Shown: positions 35,200-40,321 of the stretch, one piece after another
Layout of the letters: every line of letters begins with the position of its first letter
Numbering within the stretch: position 1 is the stretch's first letter
Assembly (NCBI GenBank): GCA_026707225.1
Contig: JAPOXG010000001.1
Coordinates: forward strand, 161,621 to 225,620
Reading direction: 5' to 3'
Origin: Chloroflexota bacterium
Lineage (GTDB): Bacteria; Chloroflexota; Anaerolineae; Aggregatilineales; Phototrophicaceae
DNA length: 64,000 nucleotides
Translations under genes and position numbers: made by a program
The notes under the pieces: generated by a model
What the model was told of the DNA's origin: nothing
What the model saw: the letters and a program-made list of their open reading frames with translations, nothing else
Database searches by the model: none

Positions 35200-35427
35200 A
35201 TGAAACACATTACTTTGTTGATCACTTTCGTGGCGTTGCTGATCCCAACAGTTGCAATCAGAGCGGACACGGCGACTGTTGATCTTTCAGCCGACCCTTC
35301 CACTCGTGCCCAACAAGCAATTGCGCTAGCAGTCGCTCAAGGGCAGAATGTTCAGACAACTGCTTCAAAGTTGGCGGCTTTTATCAATGGACTGGAGAAT
35401 CCGAGCTTTGTTCACTCCGAGGCGTAA
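35200..35427 (+). CDS. Small secreted protein, N-terminal part before an in-frame TAA
   Basis: A 75-residue product of unknown function starting at ATG 35200, five bases after AGGAGGAA. A clear signal peptide (MKHITLLITFVALLIPTVAI-RADT) is followed by a helical, Ala/Gln-rich stretch (STRAQQAIALAVAQGQNVQ...KLAAFINGLENPSF). The stop TAA at 35425-35427 is followed in the same frame by 108 more sense codons, so this is probably the first part of a longer protein. Base use is markedly richer in A and T than in the flanking genes, which suggests transfer or relaxed selection. As written, the 75-residue peptide may still be made and exported. Confidence 0.6.
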   Translation: MKHITLLITFVALLIPTVAIRADTATVDLSADPSTRAQQAIALAVAQGQNVQTTASKLAAFINGLENPSFVHSEA

Positions 35428-35754
35428 TCATACACGACGAGCGCGCAAAGCGTAAAGCAATATAAGTGTAGAGCGTCTACGAGCGGAGCGTTCACGGGTC
35501 TAACCGTTAATTGGTGGGCGTATGCGAGGGTGGTTGATGGCCGCATTCAAGGCGATCCGTACCGTGAAGGCTTTAACCACTCCTATTACGGTGTACCGGG
35601 ATCTTACGCGGTTGTAACTGGCAGCGTAACCGCTTACACCAATAATGGGGGACGCAGGATAAGGCTCGACATGAATGGAACAGCGTCCATTTGGTTTCTC
35701 AGCATTCCTGTCGGTACAACGTCGCTTAACCTCACATGTTCCAAGAATGCGTAA
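35428..35754 (+). pseudogene. In-frame continuation of the secreted-protein gene after TAA
   Basis: After the TAA the same frame continues for 108 codons to TAA 35752-35754, with no good start codon and ribosome site of its own (a GTG lies at 35530). The translation is rich in Gly, Tyr, Asn, Ser and Thr, with NWWAYARV, SYAVVTGSVTAYTNN and IRLDMNG, like an extracellular beta-sandwich. Two cysteines (YKC... near the beginning and TCSKNA at the end) could form a disulfide in an exported product. The pattern fits one nonsense change in a gene of about 184 codons, or stop readthrough; an assembly or base-calling error cannot be excluded. Confidence 0.55.
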
Positions 35755-36095: not shown

Positions 36096-37070
36096 CTATA
36101 TCTTGTCCATCTCGGCGCGGACGGTATCGAGCAGGCTGTCGGCGCGGATTTGCGCCAGCGTATAGCAGGGACCGCCCAGCTGATCGGCCAGGCGCTGCGC
36201 CAAGCCCTGATCGAAAGCGACGTGCTCCATATTGATAGTCACGGTGCGGATATCGGCTTCCTGTATTTTGCGCGCGATCGAGTGCGCTTCGTCTTGCGGC
36301 GAGACCGAGTCGCTGATTGAGACGTTGCCGGCGCCATCGGTCAGCAAGATCATCATCGGCATCACATCGGGATTCAGATTCTTCTCGCGCATGACCGCTT
36401 CGTAAGTCAGCAGCAGCCCGGCCGAGAGTGGCGTTTTGCCGCCGACCGGGATATCAGCCATCGCCTCTTTTGCCAGGACCACCGAGTTTGTCGGGGGTAG
36501 GACCAGGGAGGCGCGGTCTTTTTGAAAGACGACCAAGCCCACTCGATCACGCCGCTGGTAGGCGTCGGTTAGCAGCGACATGATGGCGCCTTTGGTCGCC
36601 TGCATGCGCTCGGAGACGGCCATGCTCCAGGAAGCGTCCACCGTGAACATGATCAGGTTGGCGGCTTTGCGCACGCGGACCTTCTCCTGCAAGTCGGTTT
36701 TGCGCAGGGCGTAGGCCATGCCGGTTTCCTGCTTCTGTTCGCCGCGCACCATCTGGAAGGGGGCGGCGGCGCGCAGGGTGGCGTCAAAGGCGATATCGCG
36801 CGGCTTTTCGCCCGCTTGCCGCGCGCGCACGTAACGCCCCCGTTTGCGATCGGTGCGGGTGGTGGAGCGCCGCCCGGATTGACGGCGGGTCATGCGGTCG
36901 AGTTGGGTATTGAGCTTGCGCGTTTCGAATTCGGCTTGCGATTGGATTTGCTGGCCGCCTTCCCACCAGCGCGCGTCAGAGGTGGGAAAGACATCTTGCG
37001 GGGCGGCTTCGGTTTGCCCGAGTTCTTGATCTTGCGGCTCGCCTTCGCCGCTTACAGACTCACTTTTTTT
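36096..37070 (-). CDS. Von Willebrand (VWA) domain of a Mg/Co-chelatase medium subunit, probably reached by -1 frameshift
   Basis: The frame is open from 37070 and encodes an acidic Gln/Glu linker, a conserved-looking WWEGGQQIQSQ...RKLNTQLDRM segment, a basic stretch (RRQSGRRSTT) and a VWA domain. The MIDAS motif is VDASWS with the TPLSAG Thr and the LTDGAGN Asp. This matches the C-terminal half of ChlD/BchD/CobT-type chelatase subunits. The only start codon in frame is ATG 36893, with no ribosome site, and it would drop the linker. The AAA+ frame (37052-38173) ends inside this linker just after an A9 run; a -1 slip there would give a 692-residue AAA+-linker-VWA protein. Ends 36096. Confidence 0.8.
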   Translation of the reverse strand, partial: KKSESVSGEGEPQDQELGQTEAAPQDVFPTSDARWWEGGQQIQSQAEFETRKLNTQLDRMTRRQSGRRSTTRTDRKRGRYVRARQAGEKPRDIAFDATLRAAAPFQMVRGEQKQETGMAYALRKTDLQEKVRVRKAANLIMFTVDASWSMAVSERMQATKGAIMSLLTDAYQRRDRVGLVVFQKDRASLVLPPTNSVVLAKEAMADIPVGGKTPLSAGLLLTYEAVMREKNLNPDVMPMMILLTDGAGNVSISDSVSPQDEAHSIARKIQEADIRTVTINMEHVAFDQGLAQRLADQLGGPCYTLAQIRADSLLDTVRAEMDKI

Positions 37071-37072
37071 TT
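37034..37072 (-). promoter_or_regulatory. Putative -1 ribosomal frameshift site (A9 run and hairpin)
   Basis: On the minus strand the AAA+ frame reads ACT AAA AAA AAA GTG AGT CTG TAA, so nine A residues (37072-37064) precede its stop. The VWA frame is exactly -1 to it and opens at this run. A 5-bp hairpin (GCGGC/GCCGC, 37051-37034) begins just after the stop, about 12 nt beyond the run, and could stimulate slippage. Programmed -1 frameshifting in chlD genes, giving small and medium chelatase subunits, has been reported for other prokaryotes. Confidence 0.65.
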
Positions 37073-38173
37073 AGTCTGCGTCGCCTGCTCGTCGCTGTCT
37101 TCGGTGAATTCGCCAGCTTCTTCGCCCTCACCAATTTCCTGCCGCTTCTCATCGACGGCCGATTCGACCGCGTTGAGATCGGCTTGGGCGTCGTTAAAGG
37201 GACCGCGCTTCAGGCGATGTGGAATGGTCAAGCGGATAGCGATGGTGATGTCTCGGTCGTTGATGGCGGCGCGCCCTTCGTAGGCGGCATGGGCGCGCGC
37301 CGCTTTCAGGATGACCAGGTCGGCGCGATGCCCGTCAATTTGCAGATCGCTGGTGATGCTGGCGATGACGCGCAAATCTTGTGTCTTGTGGGTGACGTCA
37401 TCGATGATATCACTGGCGGCGGCGATACGCTGGGACAGCTGTTCATCGACCGGGTCCCAATCGTCTTTAAAGCGGAGCGGACTGTTTTCGTAGGCAATAT
37501 GGCGCTCCAGGATTTCGATGCGTTCGGCCGCGTCTTTGATGCTGGTGACATCGACGGAGAGGGCGAAGCGGTCCAGCAGCTGCGGGCGCAGGTCGCCTTC
37601 TTCCGGATTCATCGTGCCGACTAAAATGAAGCGGGCTGGGTGGCTGAAGCTGATGCCTTCGCGCTCGACGATATTGACGCCCATCGCCGCGCTATCGAGC
37701 AGGAGATCGACGATATGGTCGTCGAGCAGATTGATTTCGTCCACATAAAGGATGCCGCGGTTTGCATTGGCCAGAACGCCGGTGTCGAAGTGGCGCTCGC
37801 CAAATTGAATCGCTTTTTCGATGTCAAGCGTGCCGACGACGCGATCTTCGGTGGCGCTGACCGGCAGGTCGACGAAGCTGATGCGCCGGCGCGCCGTCGG
37901 TATCTCCTCCCTGTCTTCGTATTTGCTGCGCGCGAAATCTGACCAGGATTCGCGGCGGAAAGGATCGTCATTGAAGGGCGAATCGGAAATCACATCAATC
38001 TCGGGCAAGAGCGCGGCCAGGGCGCGCGCGGCGGTGGATTTTCCGGTGCCGCGTTCGCCACGAATCAGCACGCCGCCGATCCTCATGTCGATGGCGTTGA
38101 GGATCAAAGCGAGTTTCATCAGGTCCTGGCCGACGATGGCAGTAAATGGATAGACGGGTGGTCGTTTGCTCAT
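37052..38173 (-). CDS. AAA+ ATPase subunit of a Mg/Co-chelatase (ChlI/CobS-like)
   Basis: A 373-residue AAA+ protein, the motor for metal insertion into a tetrapyrrole. Walker A is GERGTGKS (39-46), Walker B ILYVDEINLLDD (D145/E146), and GTMNPEEGDLRPQLLDRFALSVDV holds sensor 1 and the Arg finger typical of the chelatase family. VGTLDIEKAIQFGERHFDTGVLANANRG is the characteristic insertion. After about residue 335 comes an acidic tail (EKRQEIGEGEEAGEFTEDSDE) that looks like the start of a ChlD linker, then KKKVSL and stop. It thus looks like the front half of a ChlD-type gene cut short by its own frame. No ChlH/CobN-type subunit is in the window. Confidence 0.9.
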   Translation of the reverse strand: MSKRPPVYPFTAIVGQDLMKLALILNAIDMRIGGVLIRGERGTGKSTAARALAALLPEIDVISDSPFNDDPFRRESWSDFARSKYEDREEIPTARRRISFVDLPVSATEDRVVGTLDIEKAIQFGERHFDTGVLANANRGILYVDEINLLDDHIVDLLLDSAAMGVNIVEREGISFSHPARFILVGTMNPEEGDLRPQLLDRFALSVDVTSIKDAAERIEILERHIAYENSPLRFKDDWDPVDEQLSQRIAAASDIIDDVTHKTQDLRVIASITSDLQIDGHRADLVILKAARAHAAYEGRAAINDRDITIAIRLTIPHRLKRGPFNDAQADLNAVESAVDEKRQEIGEGEEAGEFTEDSDEQATQTKKKVSL

Positions 38174-38350: not shown

Positions 38351-40321
38351 CTATGAATCGGAGACGGTGGATGAAGGCCTTATGGACAGATCCGGCGCCG
38401 ATAAAGCGGTGGCGGTCGCGATTGCCGTCCCGGCTCGCGTGGGTCGGAGCGCAAGCGTCGCTGTCGGCAAAGGAGGCATATCGCTGACCACCGTCAGGTT
38501 CGCCGGTTCAAATCCATGACAGCGGAAGTTGGTATGAAAGCCCCAGCCACGGTCTCCGTTGGCCAATTCCACATGCAGCCAATCGGCCGCCGCGGTGACG
38601 CCTTTTGCCAATACGGGCACATTTTGCACGGCATAGTTGGCGCGCTCAAAGCGGGAATCCGGTCCGGCGTAGAGCTGCGTATCGCCAATCGGCGTACATT
38701 CCGGATCTCGGACCGCAATTGGTATCGCGCGCGTCGTCCTGCCGCCGATTTCGTCTTCCGCCGTGAGGATGATTTCGAAGTTGTCGGCTGGCGCGCCGGC
38801 GATGACGATCTCGCCTTCGTCGCCGGCGACCTGCCTTTGGACAGTCTCGAAACCGGCCGGCAGGGCGATATCCAAAGCGACCGCGCCTTCAACGCGCCAG
38901 TAGATGGTCAGGTCGCTTTGAATATCGCGCAGCAGACTTGACTTGGCCGCGGCAAATCTTCGGACGATCACGGGTTGGTAAACGTTGAGGCGCTGGTACT
39001 CCTTATCAGTCGCGTCGCCGTTTAAGGCGATCAGAGCGATGTCAATCGGGTCAATATAACCCCGAGTTTCAAGCGTGTAGCGTGAAGCGTGCGCGGGCAA
39101 CTCAGCGATTGGCAGGCCATTAACCTCGATCACGTAGCGCAGCGCTTCGGCGGCCGCCCAGCTTAATTCGGCCGGTTCGCCCTGCGCCACCGTTTCTTCG
39201 GACAGAGTGAATGAAGTGATCGCCGGTTGGGGCGGCTGATACAGCAAAGTGGCAAGCGCCAGAGCCAGAATCACGATCGAGATCGCGGCCGCGGCAAGCG
39301 CGCGGTAGTCGAGAATTGGTTTGACCGTGACGGTCGCGGGCAGGGCGACAGTATAATCGCCGGGCGCGCGCGCCTCCGCCAGAAGCGCAAAGGTATAGTC
39401 AACCGGCTTGCCCAGCAATGGTTGGTGGCGCGGTTCGACGATGGCGCTGATGACCGCGCGTTCATGCGCCTTAAGCCGAAGCGCGTCTTGCGCCAGCCTG
39501 ACGCGAAGCTGCTGGCTGGGATCGTGAAAGCCCAATTGGAGCGTCAGCTCTTCGTTGCCCAGATTTAGCAAAGCCAGGTTGAAGCGATCGCGCGCTCGGA
39601 CGCGAGGCGGCTCAACCGCGGCGCTCAAGCCACCGACGCCGCCGACCTCAATCAGCAGCGCAAGTTGAACCGATTCGTCCCCGCCGTCGAGTTGACGGAC
39701 AGTAATGATGAGCGGATATTCGCCCGGCGCGCAGTCGTGATTTCGAGTCGGCTTGAACCGCAAGAGCAAGTCGACGGCGTCGTTGGCGGCGACAGAGAAA
39801 GTAAGGTCATTGGGACTCATCCATTCACTTGGCAGCCCAGCAGTCTCTAGGCGAAATAGTCCGTCGCTTTCGCTGAGGTTGGTGACGCTGAGGCTGGTCG
39901 AAGCGGCCGAGAATCGCCAGACTTTGACTGTGCCTGTTTCGAGCCGGGCGCGGAAATGGGCGGCCGTCGGCTGCGTCGCGTCGCTGATCGCGGCCATCGC
40001 CACGGTTGGCTCCTCGCTGCTCTGATAGAATATGATGCGCAATAAGCCCGCTCGGATATGGCAGATTTCTCGCAGCCGCCGCGGTTCGTTGAGGGGCGCG
40101 GGCTCGCCATCATCAGTTGTCAAGTGGAGGGCGTCCAGATTGGTCAGGTAAACACTGTCGCCCGCGCGGCTGAAGCGGAGGTGGCGCGCCGCGAGGCTGG
40201 CATCGGACACCCGAATGGAATTGCCGGCCGCGCTGCCAATGGTGATCGCGTCTTGATCCAGAACATAGGATGCGCTGCGTCCATCTGGATACCGAATGTC
40301 TAGGCGGCTCTGAAAAGTCAT
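38351..40321 (-). CDS. FHA-domain transmembrane protein with SH3-like C-terminus
   Basis: A 656-residue protein in which a cytosolic phosphothreonine-binding FHA domain opens the chain (ITIGSAAGNSIRVSD...ARHLRF, about 1-100). Two Ig/NPCBM-like beta domains follow (to ~335), then one helix at 341-360 and a C-terminal part with a further Ig-like domain and an SH3-like module (DTQLYAGPDSRFERANYAV...GWGFHTNF, ~570-620) and a Thr/Ala-rich tail. There is no signal peptide, so the orientation (FHA inside, SH3 outside) is inferred from the single helix. FHA proteins read Thr phosphorylation by PknB-type kinases such as that at 25368-27605. Function unknown. Confidence 0.78.
   Translation of the reverse strand: MTFQSRLDIRYPDGRSASYVLDQDAITIGSAAGNSIRVSDASLAARHLRFSRAGDSVYLTNLDALHLTTDDGEPAPLNEPRRLREICHIRAGLLRIIFYQSSEEPTVAMAAISDATQPTAAHFRARLETGTVKVWRFSAASTSLSVTNLSESDGLFRLETAGLPSEWMSPNDLTFSVAANDAVDLLLRFKPTRNHDCAPGEYPLIITVRQLDGGDESVQLALLIEVGGVGGLSAAVEPPRVRARDRFNLALLNLGNEELTLQLGFHDPSQQLRVRLAQDALRLKAHERAVISAIVEPRHQPLLGKPVDYTFALLAEARAPGDYTVALPATVTVKPILDYRALAAAAISIVILALALATLLYQPPQPAITSFTLSEETVAQGEPAELSWAAAEALRYVIEVNGLPIAELPAHASRYTLETRGYIDPIDIALIALNGDATDKEYQRLNVYQPVIVRRFAAAKSSLLRDIQSDLTIYWRVEGAVALDIALPAGFETVQRQVAGDEGEIVIAGAPADNFEIILTAEDEIGGRTTRAIPIAVRDPECTPIGDTQLYAGPDSRFERANYAVQNVPVLAKGVTAAADWLHVELANGDRGWGFHTNFRCHGFEPANLTVVSDMPPLPTATLALRPTRAGTAIATATALSAPDLSIRPSSTVSDS

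Follow-up and report, generated by a model that had tools for sequence, protein, structure and literature searches.

Candidate polymerase slippage on a conserved run of nine adenines, predicted to give a short and a long AAA+ protein from one chlD-type gene in Anaerolineae

How is a gene read whose AAA+ half stops a few codons after nine consecutive adenines, with its VWA half continuing in another frame, and what might its products act on? We addressed these questions in a 64,000-nucleotide stretch of a Chloroflexota genome, here called the window, and in homologous genes of related genomes. Genes split in this way are known as fs-chlD, a family reportedly associated with Antonov and co-workers (2020). 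That one chlD gene can supply two subunits is already known, and the layout analysed here is real and conserved. Published fs-chlD genes include some from Chloroflexi and Spirochaetes that lack CobN/ChlH and whose function is unknown, for example in Brevefilum fermentans (PMC9227772). With modest confidence, we favour a reading in which a single gene yields a short AAA+ ATPase and a long AAA+–linker–VWA protein through polymerase slippage on the run of nine As (A9), for a client that is unlikely to be a tetrapyrrole chelatase.

Two frames of one ChlD-type gene

Reading both frames of the minus strand bore out the predicted succession of an AAA+ frame, A9 and a −1 VWA frame: the first frame is ChlI-like, and the −1 frame encodes the ChlD-type remainder. 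The features are as follows.

37052–38173, minus strand: default-frame open reading frame (ORF) for a 373-aa ChlI-like AAA+ ATPase (the short subunit) and the start of an acidic linker (translation, profile matches)
38036–38059, minus strand: Walker A motif GERGTGKS, residues 39–46 (translation)
37071–37073, minus strand: upstream TAA that closes the −1 frame and shares its As with the first two of the run (frame reading)
37064–37072, minus strand: A9 slippery run (sequence; A8–A10 in 120/120 loci)
37060–37062, minus strand: third-frame (+1) TGA, 1 nt past the run (stop scan)
37052–37054, minus strand: default-frame TAA, starting 9 nt past the run (sequence)
36096–37070, minus strand: −1 frame with the remaining linker and the VWA domain (translation, profile matches)
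36891–36893, minus strand: ATG, first start codon of the VWA frame (translation)
36624–36638, minus strand: intact MIDAS motif DASWS (DxSxS) (translation)

The AAA+ ORF starts at the ATG at 38173 on the minus strand and has the length expected for the small subunit. The −1 frame opens within the A run, is uninterrupted to 36096 and overlaps the AAA+ frame by 19 nt; GTGAGTCTGTAA lies directly downstream of A9 (37072–37064, minus strand). By our recount the predicted slipped product has 691 aa in total, rather than the 692 first given.

The gene falls in the sequence family TIGR02442/TIGR02030/TIGR02031. Its two halves cover positions 1–353 and 365–640 of the 641 in the TIGR02442 model (putative cobaltochelatase) and are one ChlD-type protein split at the linker. 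The closest solved structures are ChlI/BchI, the default-frame ORF matching ChlI 8osf in a PDB search with an E value of 1.9e-104, and the second half is matched by Pfam VWA_2/VWA. For comparison across relatives, 64 representatives were picked at <85% identity, and leaving out four with other frames gave 60 with the −1 layout. The Walker A motif has identical letters in 46/60 (the pattern used did not match the other 14), and DASWS is present in 59/60. AlphaFold returned a poor model of a natural fused relative (mean pLDDT 57, pTM 0.36), with low confidence at 350–459, the region holding the linker. An Rfam search gave no match at the gathering score. In some relatives, such as L069, a Cys-rich stretch (CPFSCDP...CSLCQ) follows the Walker A motif and is a possible metal site; the window protein has SPFNDDP instead (37936–37990, minus strand).

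The ATG at 36893 had been taken as the sole start of the VWA frame; it is merely the first, with further in-frame Met codons in the translation. It could start a 265-aa VWA protein, and an internal start or stop–restart might then give two separate proteins, AAA+ alone and VWA alone. We regard this as highly improbable. Across the 60 representatives the first VWA-frame start lies anywhere from 6 to 405 nt past the run and falls within 30 nt of the default stop in 12, and separate proteins would leave the A run unexplained. An internal VWA start was rejected on this variable distance and on the presence of a Shine–Dalgarno-like site in only 2/60.

The A run among relatives and in the genome

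The AAA+ gene occurs in 41/41 genomes of the order, the window's own genome included. Both halves are readable in 40; in G005 the gene breaks at a contig end, yet its A9 is present. The second half lies in the −1 frame in 37 of the 40 readable genes, in the +1 frame in two (L056 and L070) and fused in frame in one (L069), and 8–9 As stand at the same place in all of them. A second set comprised 80 named loci kept of 118 found, all titled Chloroflexi or its subgroups except L138 (Bacteroidetes); 79 have the −1 layout and one is fused with A10. The two sets overlap, and the pooled 120 loci reduce to 94 distinct sequences. Every one of the 120 loci carries a run of 8–10 As, and the distinct sequences divide into 88 with A9, four with A8 and two with A10. 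By frame of the second half, 90 are −1, two +1 and two fused (frame 0). Within the genus, each of the nine A columns is constant across 32 gap-free genes (33 distinct genes, L102 dropped), in which Lys is elsewhere encoded by 264 AAG and 358 AAA codons. The five codons downstream (GTA AGC GGC GAA GGC) also vary little, in part because of the default-frame stop.

The stops beyond the run are similarly regular. Among the 60 representatives the default-frame stop begins exactly 9 nt past the run in 57, the remaining three having it at 7, 10 and 13 nt; 58/60 have it within 9 nt, against a mean of 9.5 when synonymous codons of the −1 frame were resampled 300 times. A third-frame stop occurs within 35 nt in 59/60 (resampled mean 39.0, maximum 46) and within 16 nt in 49/60 (mean 32.7, maximum 41), compared with 32% and 17%, respectively, at control positions. 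Part of this third-frame count comes with the −1 peptide itself, as resampling already gives 39/60, and the lineages are not independent, since 25/60 share the same TGA at +1.

A homopolymer is the type of site at which assemblies err, and the deviating frames, each found in a single genome (L056, L069, L070, L134 and L202), could be such errors. The suggestion that A9 itself is a mistake of sequencing or assembly, and the gene a chlD of the usual fused kind, has a next to negligible chance of being right and was rejected: the A9/−1 layout recurs in many separately named assemblies, with the run at the same place throughout and the default stop at its fixed distance.

Conservation of both the A run and the two-frame layout in close relatives, the comparison that had been proposed as a check, lends strong support to the prediction of a small and a medium subunit from one gene through slippage at A9. 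Judged from sequence comparison, two products are very likely. As in fs-chlD genes (PMC3711429, PMC9227772), the AAA+ and VWA halves lie in two frames at an A-rich slip site; here the ChlD-type protein is split over two frames at its linker, and the A-rich site in the overlap is conserved. One gene would likewise serve for small and medium subunits, and Chloroflexi without CobN/ChlH are already listed (PMC9227772).

A9 is rare in its surroundings. It occurs once in the window, where shuffles give 0.31 on expectation and 18/100 shuffles hold at least one, and only twice in the whole 4.34-Mb genome. Scaling the window shuffle rate (0.31 per 64 kb) predicts about 21, roughly tenfold more than observed; long A runs seem to be avoided in this genome. 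The gene's own A9 is the sole A9 of the genome in 7/41 (G004, G014, G023, G027, G034, G036 and G040), the call for G036 combining a genome count of one with the run seen in L059. G026 is without any A9, and its gene carries A8. The second A9 of the window's genome (C30:25099–25107, L190) lies in an ORF that looks HTH-like by eye.

Candidate machines and the mirror genes

As a candidate mechanism, polymerase slippage fits these observations better than ribosomal frameshifting does on its own. The enzyme, probably aided to some degree by the ribosome, would slip on the nine-A run. Translation of an mRNA that had gained one A would carry on directly into the VWA frame and yield the 691-aa form, whereas on unslipped or oppositely slipped mRNAs it would stop a few codons past the run, leaving the short form. 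The short and long proteins would then share an identical AAA+ domain.

We favour the polymerase for four reasons. First, the run stays near nine, which PMC5009743 gives as the length at which polymerase slippage is efficient, although a ribosome could make do with A_AAA_AAG. Second, both unwanted frames close at once. Third, no stimulator is conserved. Fourth, the +1 layouts of L056 and L070, each a single genome, could not be used by a −1 ribosome. Stops in the third frame are useless to a ribosome that slips only −1, so the closure of that frame also favours the polymerase. Both marks of transcriptional slippage, an uninterrupted A/T run of about nine and near stops in both non-productive frames, are found here. 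Thermus dnaX is described as slipping at T9 with both off-frames closed (PMC5009743), and the likeness to the Thermus thermophilus gene extends to the nine-base homopolymer, the near stops in both other frames and the predicted short and long proteins. dnaX is an unrelated, clamp-loader gene, and slippage in the window gene, unlike that of dnaX, is a prediction from sequence. The dnaX locus of the window's own genome, considered as a second slippage gene, holds no run of at least six.

The rival reading has both subunits arise from programmed −1 frameshifting by ribosomes on A_AAA_AAA, polymerase slippage being minor. Such frameshifting is how the family has been read in print, with reporter data (PMC9227772, PMC3711429). 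The heptamer A_AAA_AAA, on which ribosomes slip readily, is present in the run, and −1 clearly predominates among the frames. In E. coli, the values for chlD cassettes were 63% with 11 As, 40% with 9 and 10% with 7 (PMC3711429), and these fit either machine. Against the ribosome stand the absence of any stimulator conserved as such, a run held at nine, the two +1 layouts and the closed third frame. As the sole mechanism, the ribosomal −1 frameshifting originally proposed fits less well than polymerase slippage; it is a possible but on the whole unlikely source of both subunits.

Six genes of family f36 (L215, L216, L218, L219, L222 and L250), presumably Herpetosiphon-like, have only A7, with the default stop 3 nt on, and a PF02514 (CobN/ChlH) gene occurs in five of the six genomes, G110 not being among the matches. 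A run of seven suits a ribosome and is short for polymerase slippage, and these f36 genes may use the ribosome.

Stimulators of ribosomal slippage bear directly on this choice. Downstream folding gave mean z scores of −0.26 to −0.59 over the 60 genes, against −0.50 to +0.32 for coding controls, and so no clear stimulator. In windows starting 10 nt past the run, z was below −2 in 9/60 genes, against 2 to 6/60 at four control places (mononucleotide shuffles), and the window's own gene scored −1.8; these folded windows are a point for the ribosome, and downstream structure may exist in some lineages. The GC hairpin noticed after the run is present in the window. Its role as a conserved stimulator was rejected, one pair being broken in up to 7/19 relatives without a compensating change. 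RNAalifold proposes another, weak fold instead (6 pairs, −4.48 kcal/mol), with a compensating change at one pair in one sequence. A downstream stimulatory RNA structure, which fs-chlD genes "usually" have and which does not strictly define them (PMC9227772), was not found conserved among the relatives. Structure potential near chlD shift sites, its sequence not strongly conserved, is described in PMC5009743. Shine–Dalgarno-like stimulator motifs occur in 9/60 genes, close to the 10.6% at control positions, and an upstream stimulator of this kind was rejected.

To place the gene in the wider phylum, we used 151 genomes, own genome included, of which 66 hold a close homologue (E ≤ 1e-75). Both halves were readable in 66 genes; this figure equals the genome count by coincidence, as it is a selection of matches in which some genomes have two genes and from which L202, L208 and L257 are left out. 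The −1 layout with A7–A10 is found in 22/66 genes, with the default stop within 17 nt in 22/22 and a third-frame stop within 35 nt in 20/22. Another 35/66, from other families, are fused and have no run of at least six, a point against the favoured reading; a second AAA+ gene is adjacent in 15 and absent from the fetched stretch in 20. In L221 (G168), a relative of the same class, no A run reaches six and the VWA half lies in the +1 frame (1/66); a different recoding route, gene decay or an error could account for this.

The remaining 8/66 are mirror genes: they are fused in frame yet retain A9. A −1 stop follows the run at exactly 3 nt in 8/8, and a +1 stop lies within 17 nt in 7/8. Since they are fused and a −1 stop follows the run at once, the long form would be their default, as in dnaX, whereas the default of the window gene is the short form. 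They make up family f26, which we take to be Chloroflexus-like. In favour of this assignment, the passages of PMC3711429 on the protein of Chloroflexus aggregans describe it solely as a fusion. Two of the eight come from single-contig genomes (G158 and G174).

In a quick tree of 125 rows, with long branches flagged and L202 and L208 added by hand, the eight mirror genes group together (support 84). Their group is nested in a starred group of 16, in which the remaining eight members are all −1. Counting L069, L134 and L202, the fused-with-run state appears in four places, among eight state changes in total. At the protein level, 120 fused proteins were listed from 7994 database matches: the linker has at least three consecutive Lys in 91 and two in 17, and 12 were unreadable by this Lys pattern.

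The gene thus departs from fs-chlD as described in that the run is held at about nine with no conserved stimulator and a closed third frame, and in the existence of a mirror clade, fused and long by default, with the same A9. In searches on fs-chlD and on chelatase or Chloroflexus with transcriptional slippage, covering titles, abstract openings and selected passages, no listed paper proposes polymerase slippage or mirror genes for chlD. We put forward tentatively, as a proposal slightly likelier to fail than to hold, that polymerase slippage on a conserved A9, and not a ribosomal signal, sets the ratio of short to long AAA+ motor in Anaerolineae and kin, that the default flipped in evolution while the run stayed, and that the client lies outside tetrapyrrole chelation.

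Products and possible clients

The products had been called chelatase subunits, and their resemblance to Mg-chelatase ChlI/ChlD and Co-chelatase CobS/CobT covers sequence family, domain order, MIDAS and Walker A. That sequence family and the ChlI/BchI structures closest to it are what speaks for a chelatase. The gene differs from those systems in that no large subunit or CbiC was found here and in that its D-type and I-type products would have one and the same AAA+ domain. PF02514 has no match in the window's own genome and none in 40/41 genomes of the order, own included. In G025, the one exception, separate I- and D-like matches flank the PF02514 gene on one contig, and the slippage gene lies on a different contig. 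The corrin gene cbiC (CbiC/CobH) was not found in 41/41 order genomes. Both searches work, as the control genomes show, with CbiC found in 7/14 and PF02514 in 5/14. Because neither CobN/ChlH nor cbiC was found in this 95%-complete genome and its relatives, apart from PF02514 in G025, the gene is probably not a chelatase gene here, and we consider the chelatase reading of its products very unlikely. Across the phylum, PF02514 occurs in 27/151 genomes, including all eight with mirror genes; genes of this kind may therefore act for a chelatase in genomes that have a large subunit.

MoxR, RavA–ViaA and related pairs combine an AAA+ ring with a VWA partner and have no chelatase subunit. Our best guess is a MoxR- or RavA–ViaA-like role in remodelling or metal loading, although the gene here matches ChlI-type models. 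The short and long proteins would assemble like ChlI–ChlD or CobS–CobT rings, and the MIDAS of the VWA domain would grip a client.

The neighbourhood of 40 loci (ORFs of at least 90 aa, with the gene and overlapping ORFs set aside) offered no consistent neighbour that would name this client. The commonest cluster, an ABC-type ATPase by eye, is found at 13/40 loci at scattered distances, and the next at five or fewer. In the window, the gene upstream on the same strand (38351–40321, minus) encodes an FHA domain; among the loci printed, its cluster occurs only in the window and in one close relative (L041). On the plus strand at 35200–35754, an ORF with the look of a secreted protein runs for 75 codons to a TAA and its frame stays open for 108 codons beyond, as a broken gene or a read-through stop would leave it.

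The presence of fs-chlD in genomes without a chelatase is a published puzzle, and the locus turns it into a testable case: run length, closure of both frames and the mirror genes together predict slipped mRNAs that would be visible by sequencing. If polymerase slippage on the run is the mechanism, some plain-looking fused chlD genes in other Chloroflexota would also make two subunits, and an AAA+/VWA machine would be present across the order, whose 41 searched genomes all carry the gene.
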